Shown in pieces: positions 4,612-8,256 of a stretch of 38,882 nucleotides of DNA. The stretch's first letter is position 1. Each line of letters starts with the position of its first letter. Location of the stretch: assembly GCA_013002175.1 (NCBI GenBank), contig JABDKP010000012.1:1-38882 (forward strand), read 5' to 3'. The notes under the pieces were generated by a model that worked only from the letters and a program-made list of their open reading frames with translations, was not told the origin of the DNA and did not search any database. This stretch comes from Ilumatobacter sp. (GTDB taxonomy: Bacteria; Actinomycetota; Acidimicrobiia; Acidimicrobiales; Ilumatobacteraceae). The translations under genes and the position numbers were made by a program.

Positions 4612-5217
4612 GTGCGAGTCGCGGCATTGATCCCGGTCAAAGGCTTCGACGCCGCCAAGGGACGGTTGGCCGGCGTGCTCGACACGTCCGAACGCGCCAG
4701 CCTCGCTCGGTGGGTCGCCACGACGGTCGTCGAAGCGCTCGACCCGATCGACGTGTTCGTCGCCTGCGACGACCCGGTGGTACGGACCTGGGCCACCGCG
4801 CTCGGTGCGACCGTCGCGTGGGGCCCGGGTCTCGGCCTCAACGGGGCGATCGACGACGGCGTGGCGACGATCGCCGAGGCCGGCTTCGACCATGTGTTGA
4901 TCACTCATGCCGACCTGCCCCGACCGTCGTCGCTGCTCGCCGTGGCGCGATGTGACACGGTCACCCTCGTGCCGGACCGCCGGCGCGACGGGACGAACGT
5001 CATGGCGTTCCCGGTGTCCGATCCCGTCGAAGCGTCGTACGGGCCGGGGTCGTTCCGGCGTCATTTCGCGGCGGCCGCCGCGACCGCCCATGCGGTCGAG
5101 GTTCGTGTCGACCCGGACCTGTCGCTGGACATCGACACCGCAGACGATCTCCGCCACCCCCAGATTGACGAGGTGCTGCCACCATGGCTGCGAACGATCC
5201 TGGCCAGCCGTCCGTGA
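4612..5217 (+). CDS. cofC: 2-phospho-L-lactate/phosphoenolpyruvate guanylyltransferase (F420 biosynthesis)
   Basis: Joins GTP to a three-carbon phosphate (phosphoenolpyruvate or 2-phospholactate), giving the precursor that is attached to Fo in coenzyme F420 synthesis; the actinobacterial name is fbiD. The 201-residue protein has the family nucleotidyltransferase start LIPVKGFDAAKGRLAG, the CDDPVV strand, the GLNGAIDDGV segment, ITHADLPR (metal-binding Asp) and PDRRRDGTNVMAF, and ends with the LDIDTADDL pattern typical of CofC. GTG at 4612 is the only sensible start. It overlaps the next gene by 34 nt. Confidence 0.92.
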   Translation: MRVAALIPVKGFDAAKGRLAGVLDTSERASLARWVATTVVEALDPIDVFVACDDPVVRTWATALGATVAWGPGLGLNGAIDDGVATIAEAGFDHVLITHADLPRPSSLLAVARCDTVTLVPDRRRDGTNVMAFPVSDPVEASYGPGSFRRHFAAAAATAHAVEVRVDPDLSLDIDTADDLRHPQIDEVLPPWLRTILASRP

Positions 5218-5960
5218 GCGCGGGGCGCGAAGCGTCGCGCAACCATCCGACACCCGCCTCGGCGCTGGCGATCGGAGCGCACCCGGACGACGTCGAGTTC
5301 GGTGCGGGCGCCGTGCTGGCCAAGTGGGCCGCCGACGGGTGCGTCATCCACCACCTGATCTGCACCGACGGTGCGAAGGGCACCTGGGATGCCGGTGCGG
5401 ACACCGTCGCACTGGCGGCTCGCCGGCAGGACGAGCAGCGTGAGGCCGCCCGGCGTCTGGCGGGCTCACCGGACCGGGCAGGCGACGTGCGCTTCCTCGG
5501 CGACGTCGACGGCGAGCTCGACAGCTCGCTCGTGCGACGCGGCGAGGTGGCGCGCATCATCCGGGAGTTGCAGCCGCAGGTCGTCATGGGCCACGACCCC
5601 TGGAAGCGGTATCGACTGCACCCCGATCATCGGCATGCAGGTCTGCTCACATGCGAGGGGATCGTCGCTGCGCGTGACCCCCACTTCTACCGCGAGCACG
5701 GTCTCGCGGCGCATCGGCCCGATGCGCTGTTTCTCTTCGAGGCCGACGAGCCCGACCACGTCGAGGACGTGACCGCGTTCGTCGATGTGAAGCTCGACGC
5801 ACTCCTTGCCCACACCAGCCAGTTCGAGTCGACGATGAAGGCGCTCGACGCCGATCAGCTCGGGGCGTTTCGGGACCGGATCCGGTCGAGGCTCGCCGAG
5901 CTGGGCGCACCGTTCGGCTTCGGCGGCGCCGAGGTGTTCAAGATCATCACCGACCTGTGA
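5184..5960 (+). CDS. PIG-L family zinc-dependent deacetylase
   Basis: PIG-L enzymes remove N-acetyl groups from sugars or related amides; actinobacterial members include the mycothiol enzymes MshB and Mca. The 258-residue protein carries the metal motif AHPDD (His33, Asp35, Asp36), then ICTDGAKG, the WKRYRLHPDHR segment with a second zinc His, and a C-terminal helix. ATG 5184 has a GAGGTG ribosome site 8 nt away. An alternative GTG at 5214 would overlap the cofC stop as GTGA and remove 10 unconserved residues. Overlap with cofC implies co-translation, but a role in F420 metabolism is only inference. Substrate unknown. Confidence 0.85.
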   Translation: MAANDPGQPSVSAGREASRNHPTPASALAIGAHPDDVEFGAGAVLAKWAADGCVIHHLICTDGAKGTWDAGADTVALAARRQDEQREAARRLAGSPDRAGDVRFLGDVDGELDSSLVRRGEVARIIRELQPQVVMGHDPWKRYRLHPDHRHAGLLTCEGIVAARDPHFYREHGLAAHRPDALFLFEADEPDHVEDVTAFVDVKLDALLAHTSQFESTMKALDADQLGAFRDRIRSRLAELGAPFGFGGAEVFKIITDL

Positions 5961-5968
5961 GACGCGAA

Positions 5969-5992
5969 ACGGGAGGCCCGCAGGCCTCCCGT
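5969..5992. terminator. Bidirectional terminator-like hairpin
   Basis: A perfect 10-bp stem, ACGGGAGGCC with GGCCTCCCGT, and a 4-nt loop, lying between the convergent ends of the PIG-L gene and the basic repeat peptide. No strong T-run follows on either strand. Confidence 0.6.
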
Positions 5993-6028
5993 CTCGGTCT
6001 CGTCGATCGTGATCAGACGATCGTCAGA

Positions 6029-6193
6029 TCACTTCTTCTTGGCTGACCGCTTCTTGGCAGCAGCCTTCTTCTTCGCCGGTGCCTTCTTCGCGGCAGCCTT
6101 CTTCTTGGCCGGACGCTTCTTGGCAGCAGCCTTCTTCTTGGCCGGTGCCTTCTTGGCAGCAGCCTTCTTCTTGGCGGGTCGCTTGGCAGCCAT
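6029..6193 (-). CDS. Lysine/alanine repeat peptide, a detached HU/H1-type tail (54 aa)
   Basis: A 54-residue product with the sequence MAAK followed by four copies of an 11-residue unit that alternates RPAKKKAAAKK and APAKKKAAAKK, ending RSAKKK. It holds 24 Lys and 3 Arg and no acidic residue. This is the composition of histone H1-like bacterial proteins and of the C-terminal tail that actinobacterial HU (HupB/HLP) normally carries fused to its core. Here it begins 4 nt after the HU stop codon in the +1 frame relative to HU, with its own ATG. No clear ribosome site precedes it, so translation would depend on reinitiation after HU. Likely role: nonspecific DNA binding and compaction. A sequencing or recent frameshift that split a fused gene is the alternative. 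Confidence 0.72.
   Translation of the reverse strand: MAAKRPAKKKAAAKKAPAKKKAAAKKRPAKKKAAAKKAPAKKKAAAKKRSAKKK
6050..6181 (-). repeat. 33-nt tandem repeats encoding the basic tail
   Basis: Four consecutive 33-nt units at 6181-6149, 6148-6116, 6115-6083 and 6082-6050, differing mainly in the first codon pair (Arg-Pro or Ala-Pro) and at third positions. The alternation gives a 66-nt higher-order repeat, and copy number is likely to vary between strains. Confidence 0.85.
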
Positions 6194-6197
6194 CAGG

Positions 6198-6482
6198 TCA
6201 GCGGTTGCCGTTGAGGGCTTGCTTCAGCGTCGAGCTGGCGCTGAACTTCATCGCCGTCGAGGCCTTGATCTGCACCGGTGCGCCGGTCTGCGGGTTGCGG
6301 CCCTCGCGCGCCTTGCGCTCGGTGGTGCTGAAGGCGCCGAAGCCCGGCCATGCGACCTTCTCGCCGTCCTTCGTCGCACTGACGACGTGATCGAAGAACG
6401 CACCCAGCGTCCGCTCGGCGTCCGCCTTCGAGACTCCTGCTGCGTCTGAGACTGCGTCGATCAATTCTGACTTGGTTGCCAT
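6198..6482 (-). CDS. hup: HU family DNA-binding protein, core domain only
   Basis: A 94-residue HU protein that binds and bends DNA as a dimer in the nucleoid. It starts MATKSELIDAVSDAAGVSK and has the HU signature GFGAFSTTERKAREGRNPQTG with the DNA-intercalating NPQTG turn, ending with a short helix. Actinobacterial homologues usually run on into a Lys/Ala/Pro tail; this one stops at NGNR and the tail is a separate reading frame downstream. The stop is TGA followed by C, the weakest termination context known in enteric bacteria. The start has a good GAGGAG ribosome site 5 nt from the ATG. Confidence 0.93.
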   Translation of the reverse strand: MATKSELIDAVSDAAGVSKADAERTLGAFFDHVVSATKDGEKVAWPGFGAFSTTERKAREGRNPQTGAPVQIKASTAMKFSASSTLKQALNGNR

Positions 6483-6825
6483 GTGGGCTCCTCTTTCGGA
6501 TGTTCGGATGGTCGTGTCTTCGGTTTGCCGTCGTGCCCGTCACCGATGCCTGCGTGGCGGGCGGATCCCGCTTTCGTCGCGGAACGACCCCCATGAGACC
6601 GACCTGGCCACGGGCTTGCAAGGACCAAACACATTGCATTTGCAATAACCTTTCCCGCGCCGATCGGTCGCGACACGTGGTTCGGGCCCGTGGGTGCCGC
6701 CCAGCGCATCGCGCCACCAGCAGACGCCGGTCCCCATCCACCACCTCGCACCACCGTCGGACTACAACAGAACCCGTTGCGTATGAGCCACCGAACAGCG
6801 ATCCACCGTTCCATCGAGGAGTGAG
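6483..6825. other. Divergent intergenic region between hup and phoH
   Basis: The 343 nt contain no gene I can support. The region is visibly richer in A and T than its surroundings, especially around 6610-6655, and must hold the promoters of hup (leftward) and the PhoH gene (rightward). It contains the perfect palindrome listed at 6633-6646. A TACAAC hexamer near 6764 could serve the PhoH gene. An open frame over 6476-6829 ends in an ATGA overlap with phoH but has A/T-rich third positions unlike real genes here. Confidence 0.6.
6633..6646. promoter_or_regulatory. Palindromic operator candidate upstream of hup
   Basis: ATTGCA-TT-TGCAAT, a perfect 6-2-6 palindrome in a short A/T-rich island about 150 nt upstream of hup and 180 nt upstream of phoH. 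Such a site in a G+C-rich genome suggests a regulator site or promoter core. Confidence 0.45.
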
Positions 6826-8256
6826 ATGACCGACCTGCTTCCGTCCGCCGACACCACGACCACGACAGGCGCCGTGGAGCGGGAAGGTGACGGGACGGGC
6901 CAGGATCGGGCGGACGACAGCAGCGGCGACGGCACCCACCGAACCCGCACCAGGCTCGTGCTCGACACATCGGTGTTGATCGCCGATCCGACCTGCATCC
7001 TGGAGTTTCGTGACGCCAACGTGATCATCCCGCTCACGGTCGTCGAAGAACTCGACGGACTGAAGAGCCGTCGCGACGACGTCGGCCGAGCCGCCCGGAC
7101 CGCGCTGCGAACACTCGAGGAGCTCCGCGTGCGCCACGGCGGATCGCTCGCCGAGCCCGTGCCCACCGGCGCCACCGGCGCCACCGTGCAGATCGAGATC
7201 AACAACATCCGCAAGCACCTGCTCGTCGAGCACGGGCTCAACGCGGAGGTGCCCGACAACCGCATCATCGGCGCCGCGATCGGGCAGTCCGACTACGGGC
7301 CGACGACGATCATCAGCAACGATGCTGCATTGCGGATCAAGGCGGCTCACCTGGGTGTCGCGGCCGCCGAGCACACGCTGGCGCGCACCCGCGACGAACG
7401 CCCGGCGATCGGCTGGACCACGATCGACACCTCCCACGAGGTCATCGACTGCCTCTTCGCAGCCGGCGGGATCGCCACCGGCGCGGTCGTCGACGACGAG
7501 ATGCGCGAGAACGAGTTCGCCGTGCTCCGGTCCGGTTCGCAGTCCGCGCTGGTCCGCACGGTCGGCGACGAGTTCGTGCTGATGACGCAACATCCACCCG
7601 AGCCGTGGGGCCTCCGGCCGCGCAACAAGGAGCAGCGGTTCGCGCTGGAGCTGTTGCTCGACCCGGACATCACGGTGATCGCCCTCGACGGCCGAGCCGG
7701 TACCGGCAAGACGCTGTTGGCGGTTGCTGCGGGCCTCGAGCAGGTGGTCGAGCAGCGCCGCTTCGAGCGGCTGGCGATCTACCGGCCGTTGGTGCCGGTC
7801 GGCCGCGCCGACGTCGGCTTCCTGCCGGGCGGGCTCGATGAGAAGCTCGACCCGTGGATGGCAGCGATCCACGATGCGGTCGTCGCGCTGTCCGACCTCG
7901 GCAGCAATCGCGACGCTCGCAACCTGATCGAGGAACTGACCGAGCGCGGCCAACTGTCGCTGGAGTCGGTGACGTTCCTCCGGGGCCGGTCGTTGCAGCG
8001 CCAGATGGTGATCATCGACGAGGCCCAGAACCTGGAACCGACCACCCTGCGCACGATCCTGACGCGGGTCGGTGAGGGGACGAAGGTGATCTTCACCGGC
8101 GACACCAGCCAGATCGACGCCCCGTACCTCGGCGAGTCGAACAACGCGCTCACGGTGCTCGCCGCCGCGTTCGGCAACCAGCGCTGCTTCGGGCACATCA
8201 CGCTGACATCGTGCGAGCGCAGCGACGTCGCCAGCCTCGCGGCCGAGTTGCTGTAG
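6826..8256 (+). CDS. PIN domain-PhoH family ATPase
   Basis: A 476-residue fusion of an N-terminal PIN ribonuclease domain and a C-terminal PhoH-type P-loop ATPase, the PhoH2 architecture, shown in mycobacteria to unwind and cut RNA. The PIN domain spans about 45-175: LVLDTSVLIADP (first catalytic Asp), VVEELDGLK, then a later Asp in PDNRIIGAAI and SNDAALR. The PhoH domain has Walker A GRAGTGKT (about 289-296), YRPLVPVGRADVGFLPG, Walker B MVIIDEAQN (about 396) and FTGDTSQID. The start has AGGAG 4 nt upstream. The mycobacterial partner PhoAT is encoded just upstream; no convincing counterpart is visible here. Confidence 0.92.
   Translation: MTDLLPSADTTTTTGAVEREGDGTGQDRADDSSGDGTHRTRTRLVLDTSVLIADPTCILEFRDANVIIPLTVVEELDGLKSRRDDVGRAARTALRTLEELRVRHGGSLAEPVPTGATGATVQIEINNIRKHLLVEHGLNAEVPDNRIIGAAIGQSDYGPTTIISNDAALRIKAAHLGVAAAEHTLARTRDERPAIGWTTIDTSHEVIDCLFAAGGIATGAVVDDEMRENEFAVLRSGSQSALVRTVGDEFVLMTQHPPEPWGLRPRNKEQRFALELLLDPDITVIALDGRAGTGKTLLAVAAGLEQVVEQRRFERLAIYRPLVPVGRADVGFLPGGLDEKLDPWMAAIHDAVVALSDLGSNRDARNLIEELTERGQLSLESVTFLRGRSLQRQMVIIDEAQNLEPTTLRTILTRVGEGTKVIFTGDTSQIDAPYLGESNNALTVLAAAFGNQRCFGHITLTSCERSDVASLAAELL

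Follow-up and report, generated by a model that had tools for sequence, protein, structure and literature searches.

The gene for the DNA-binding protein HU in this Ilumatobacter sp. ends without a C-terminal tail, and four nucleotides behind its stop codon a separate open reading frame (ORF) begins that specifies a Lys/Ala/Pro-repeat, histone H1-like protein. The break between HU and tail is real and conserved, and it is no sequencing error. We consider it probable that the two genes form an operon whose single mRNA yields tailless HU and a free polycation, the latter made by ribosomes that reinitiate after finishing HU.

A tailless HU gene and its adjacent H1-like gene

Both genes lie on the minus strand of the window, the 38,882-nucleotide stretch of contig JABDKP010000012.1 that was analyzed. 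The HU gene (6482 to 6198) consists of 94 codons and a TGA stop (6200 to 6198). Its 94 aa product, taken from the ORF list, matches Pfam PF00216 over residues 3-91 (E 2.7e-30, 104.9 bits against a cut-off of 22.4), a full-length HU/IHF domain match that places it in the HU family, and it is the sole HU match at E 0.001 in its own genome, which is 89% complete. The stop codon and a 4-nt spacer, CCTG, occupy 6200 to 6194 and are followed by the ATG of the second gene (6193 to 6029), which has 54 codons plus TGA and stands in the +1 frame relative to HU. The predicted 54-aa protein, MAAKRPAKKKAAAKKAPAKKKAAAKKRPAKKKAAAKKAPAKKKAAAKKRSAKKK, is composed of four 11-residue (33-nt) units, with basic residues making up half of it (24 AAG and 3 Arg codons out of 54). 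The preliminary description had reported the 94-codon HU gene with its TGA, the 4-nt gap and the 54-codon, four-unit ORF starting with ATG in the +1 frame, and every one of these features was confirmed, as were its coordinates, on a strand that it had not named.

Pfam and NCBIfam searches gave the second ORF no name, as all matches fell under the respective cut-offs, including those to PF07382 (11.2 bits, cut-off 40) and NF038053 (15.9 bits, cut-off 80); the longer tail of another family genome (G006) also scored below them, at 28.4 and 34.2 bits. The protein shares composition and repeats with Hc2, the Burkholderia H1-like proteins and the AlgP tail while scoring far below the cut-offs of these two models. 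To our knowledge, none of those proteins is encoded directly behind HU. According to the available part of PMC9239181, DNA binding was observed for a fragment of the AlgP tail, which resembles H1 in composition. The second protein in the window is probably a disordered, H1-like polycation. No further H1-like protein was found in the same genome at E 0.001, which is a weak negative given the low-complexity query.

The arrangement recurs throughout the genus. HU was found in eight of ten genus members searched, counting the window genome; the two without a match, G001 and G004, have completeness values of 78% and 69%. All eight have a TGA, four nucleotides and an ATG leading into a Lys/Ala-rich ORF, with a common spacer pattern of TGA-NCTG-ATG, and one of them is a single-contig genome of 4.8 Mb; an HU-tail fusion was found in none of the eight. 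The comparison of relatives that the preliminary description had proposed thus came out in favor of a conserved break, since close relatives do not carry uninterrupted fusions and keep both the stop and the 4-nt spacing.

For the family, 56 loci were collected at one per genome, and three of them were dropped as fused-tail paralogs (L085, L087 and L088), leaving 53 HU loci. In two of these (L017 and L019) the contig ends at or within 12 nt past the HU stop, so that 51 loci could be assessed, and 48 of the 51 have a tailless HU with a separate downstream Lys/Ala-rich ORF, 46 of them recognized by script and two (L009 and L020) by eye. The remaining three, in genomes G013 (L043), G015 (L033) and G028 (L034), have HU with no tail gene behind it, which was either lost or never present. 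The break is also found in all three one-contig genomes of the family sample (G006, G027 and G045). This recurrence of an HU stop with an adjacent Lys/Ala-rich ORF exceeds what chance would give and upholds the earlier view that the tail is a separate gene, although low complexity prevents proof that all of the downstream genes are homologous.

Transcription and translation of the second gene

The second gene is followed by a GC-rich hairpin and TTT (5969 to 5992, minus strand), identified by folding the 90 nt after the ORF. The window sequence folds to a lower energy than any of its 300 mononucleotide shuffles. A long GC-rich hairpin was found after the second stop in all nine short-form loci folded (forms are defined below); with 300 shuffles for each of the nine, five loci had no shuffle that was as low, three loci had one and one locus had four. 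A consensus terminator scan of positions 5800-6900 found nothing, nor did Rfam at gathering score over 5000-8000. The hairpin, which sits between convergent genes, is likely the shared terminator of a two-gene transcript, and HU and the tail gene would thus be transcribed as one mRNA ending there. The convergent neighbor is a PIG-L gene (PF02585; 5184-5960) whose end lies at 5960, and a PIN-PhoH gene (PF13638, PF02562; 6826-8256) diverges from HU on the other side. The same PIN-PhoH and PIG-L flank is seen in relatives such as L002, L004, L005, L089 and L090.

The region that separates HU from the divergent PhoH gene contains a perfect 12-nt palindrome, TTGCATTTGCAA (6634 to 6645), which is the only match in the window. 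In 37 of the 53 family loci the pattern TTGCANNTGCAA precedes HU by 86-197 nt; it is absent from the other 16 and does not occur in the 65 kb that the same loci contribute from the HU start on. In the window's own 3.33 Mb genome, TTGCAWWTGCAA was found once. Across genomes, the palindrome site was present at HU in all 12 searched and was the only copy in five of the 12, while a reversed control pattern occurred 0-4 times per genome. The palindrome is a candidate for an operator or promoter element dedicated to the operon. The papers listed by a literature search with its letters looked unrelated, judged by titles and abstract openings. Separately, inspection by eye showed a recurring stretch like TCACATGGTTGTCGTTCCGC ahead of HU in several members of the genus (6483-6633 in the window, minus strand); it has no Rfam match and might act as a leader or as a promoter element.

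Translation initiation appears to differ between the two genes. HU has a Shine-Dalgarno sequence, GAGGAG (6493 to 6488, minus strand), with a duplex energy of -8.2 at its start, compared with -1.7 at the second start and a background mean of -2.8 over 2,191 positions in HU coding sequence; by this measure, no site comparable to the HU Shine-Dalgarno was found before the second ATG in the window. Energies at the second start range from -1.7 to -4.2 in the genus, around the same background mean.

Measured over 46 family loci, the distance from the HU stop to the second start falls into a short form of 2-8 nt (19 loci, with 4 nt in 11 and 7 nt in five) and a long form of 17-65 nt (27 loci). The short form comprises the window genus and seven other genera, and every genus with a measured gap has one form only. 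Median duplex energies at the second start are -3.6 in the short form and -6.5 in the long form (Mann-Whitney p 7e-7, a value that overstates the number of events because the loci are not independent). A Shine-Dalgarno-like site of -5.6 or stronger precedes the second gene in 25 of the 27 long-form loci, the exceptions being L048 (-3.8) and L030 (+2.2, where the start was perhaps wrongly chosen). The separation is not absolute, as short-form energies include intermediates down to -6.0, and HU's own start is the stronger of the two in 17/19 short loci but also in 19/27 long ones. HU itself ends in TGA in 18 of 19 short-form loci, the other having TAG, versus none of 27 in the long form, which uses TAA or TAG; TGA is likewise missing from the 12 long-form loci whose fetched sequence has a GC content of 60% or more. 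On a tree of HU DNA the forms cluster, requiring a minimum of four changes versus shuffled means of 16.6 and 18.6, with the reservations that the tree has 285 columns and an uncertain root and that L009 and L020 were labeled by eye.

The short gap and the usually weak or missing Shine-Dalgarno before the second start are the grounds for proposing reinitiation. In the short form, a ribosome that finishes HU would reinitiate at the adjacent ATG 2-8 nt on, usually 4 or 7, and polycation would be produced in some proportion to HU, whereas in the long form the second gene would be initiated independently, usually from its own Shine-Dalgarno. The suggestion in the preliminary description that reinitiation sets the ratio of the two products fits the sequence in these respects, with a 4-nt gap in 8/8 genus members and a weak or absent Shine-Dalgarno at the second ATG where HU has one. 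The distances, 4 nt throughout the genus and 2-8 nt in 19 family loci, lie within the range for termination-reinitiation, as gaps and not as overlaps. Like known coupled pairs, the genes have a very short stop-start distance and a downstream start that lacks a good Shine-Dalgarno, but typical coupled pairs overlap by 4 or 1 nt, while the gap here is +4 and the long-form pairs are far apart. The accessible portion of PMC10666635, which likewise finds overlap to be typical, states that coupled genes often encode subunits of one complex, and that in E. coli pairs reinitiation is reduced by 5-70% at 2 nt, by 40-80% at about 13-14 nt and nearly completely at 38 nt. Because a gap of 2 nt is already this costly there, coupling at 4 nt may be weak. 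By this analogy the short form could be coupled less tightly than overlapping genes and the long form hardly at all, an expectation that agrees with where the Shine-Dalgarno sites occur.

The second protein might instead be initiated on its own, from a start that is leaderless or lacks a Shine-Dalgarno or from an internal promoter in HU, with no reinitiation involved. Starts without a Shine-Dalgarno are common in the phylum, and the 25 long-form loci with a site of their own make an independent start something of a family habit. The authors of PMC10666635, in the portion available, regard overlap as a requirement for coupling and scanning after termination as rare, if it occurs. Against an independent start, the Shine-Dalgarno is weak at best within the genus while the 4-nt gap is kept in 8/8, and a consensus scan of 5800-6900, a weak test, found no sigma-70-like promoter. 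We regard this alternative as possible but rather doubtful, and reinitiation as the preferred reading for the short form.

Programmed +1 frameshifting at the HU stop, which would produce an HU-tail fusion, perhaps beside tailless HU, is very unlikely. The tail is in the +1 frame in 16 of 19 short-form loci, a fair point for this explanation, the common gaps of 4 and 7 nt differ by a whole codon, and in the window the tail frame is open from the HU stop through into the tail. The remaining short-form loci, though, have the tail in frame +2 (two loci) or 0 (one locus), all three frames occur in the long form, and the totals over 46 loci are +1 in 22, +2 in 15 and 0 in nine; moreover, whole-codon changes at the end of HU would yield an excess of +1 without selection on the frame. 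The codon before the HU stop and the base after it vary even inside the genus, with CGC-TGA-C, CGC-TGA-T, AAG-TGA-A and AAG-TGA-C among the contexts of relatives, so that neither a conserved slippery stop context nor a conserved frame relation of the kind expected for programmed frameshifting was found. Fusion by frameshifting at CGC-TGA-C, raised in the preliminary description, was thus not supported: preceding codon, following base, spacing and frame all vary, and 25/27 long-form relatives have a Shine-Dalgarno-like site. As a mechanism for the family, frameshifting was ruled out by the variable frames and contexts and by spacings of 2-65 nt. Separate translation of the two genes accounts for the variation in frame and context, which a conserved frameshift does not.

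Coding evidence, tail length and assembly

Mismatches between the repeat units point to a translated second gene. In the window ORF, 10 of 15 such mismatches fall at codon position 3, and over 44 tails the counts at positions 1, 2 and 3 are 591, 467 and 920 (of 2,701 each), a third-position excess that supports selection on the protein. The best self-match shift was a multiple of three in 44/44 tails, which follows partly from composition. Complete tails are anywhere between 22 and 170 aa long, and this variation, together with the three family genomes from which the gene is missing, would suit a decaying or untranslated remnant. Such a remnant is nevertheless highly improbable in view of the open frame, the start codon, the third-position excess over 44 tails of many genera and the Shine-Dalgarno before the second gene in most long-form loci.

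Assemblers have difficulty with this repeat. At 11 of the 53 family HU loci the contig stops within it or shortly ahead of it (eight tails that run off the contig, plus L009, L017 and L019), and two further loci (L016 and L020) contain runs of N. The window assembly consists of 191 contigs. Because contigs often break at the repeat and tail length varies, the tail length in the window is uncertain, and its 54 codons may be a collapsed repeat. Repeat length apart, the dull explanation of the preliminary description, namely that a gene in which HU and tail are normally fused has recently undergone a frameshift or was misassembled, is refuted for the break itself despite these difficulties, as the same break occurs in 8/8 genus members with HU and in three one-contig genomes, and no fusion was found in the genus.

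Relation to fused tails and known HU proteins

Separate tail genes also occur elsewhere in the class. Outside the family, 90 loci from 89 genomes, covering 15 of 49 families, were sampled, and 31 have a separate Lys/Ala-rich ORF, which lies 41-99 nt past HU in 26 of the 31; in L066 a separate ORF was seen that did not satisfy the composition rule and is left out of this number. Many of these ORFs have starts such as VVTVPPAKRR. Names on records of class-level relatives include Acidimicrobiia and Acidimicrobiaceae. A fused tail is found in 17 of the 90 loci, and four (L057, L058, L059 and L200) have both fused and separate tails, so a separate gene is not necessarily a tail that became detached. 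Twenty loci from other classes of the phylum, sampled among the highest-scoring HU loci in 149 genomes, all lack a separate tail ORF. A wider contig scan gave, among its best 80 loci, 11 that look class-level (L091-L099, L101 and L159) and 69 from other phyla. One contig in that set, titled Bifidobacterium breve (CAMCZG010000028.1; L095), bears the HU and tail gene of the window family, and its name looks wrong.

Some genomes of the window family encode an additional HU that is divergent and carries a fused Lys/Ala tail of 25-71 residues (L264-L274, L085, L087 and L088). Searched with its own profile at E of at most 1e-30, this paralog was found in 52 of 121 family genomes, which belong to genera g2, g3, g4, g6, g10, g18, g22, g23 and g25. 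It was found in none of the 33 genomes of short-form genera (30 with an HU match and three without any), where form was assigned by genus and g22 has no assigned form. Several long-form genera (g9, g11, g12, g14, g15 and g21) likewise showed no such paralog. The distribution fits replacement of the fused tail by the free one in the window genus, and phylogeny alone could also lie behind it.

Like HupB of mycobacteria and HupS of Streptomyces, the locus encodes an HU core together with Lys/Ala/Pro H1-like repeats; unlike in those proteins, HU stops after residue 94 and a separate ORF in another frame contains the repeats. With its stop after codon 94 and no Lys/Ala tail in the HU frame, the window HU is not of the HupB type. 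A 2017 survey, as far as its available text goes (PMC5683647), gives HU_acti_0, which has no C-terminal extension, as the only HU clade of Acidimicrobiia. The window HU is likewise tailless, a likeness judged against this published statement. Unlike in that account, there is a separate tail gene here, which the available text does not mention, and the window family has fused-tail paralogs. Given an Acidimicrobiia clade without extension in that text and four order-level relatives carrying both kinds of tail, a history in which the tail split off HU is not borne out. Among the matches listed in a search of open-licence papers, none dealt with a separate tail gene behind HU.

In mycobacterial HupB the PAKK/KAAK tail is indispensable for nucleoid binding, according to the part of PMC5676037 that was available. 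The free tail proposed here would coat and compact DNA beside HU, acting in trans as the fused tail of HupB acts in cis. Research on fused tails of the HupB kind treats them as a counterpart of histone H1 in bacteria. Separate adjacent genes with natural variants in spacing and tail length make it directly testable whether HU and such a tail have to be joined. The locus also carries a warning for annotation, since a second gene this short and low in complexity is readily overlooked, and assemblies often break at it. Tentatively, this class of actinobacteria may have a two-component chromatin in which an H1-like tail works in trans, as a free polycation of variable length beside HU; the ratio of the two would be set by reinitiation or by an independent Shine-Dalgarno depending on the genus, and lineages without a fused paralog would rely on the coupled free tail.
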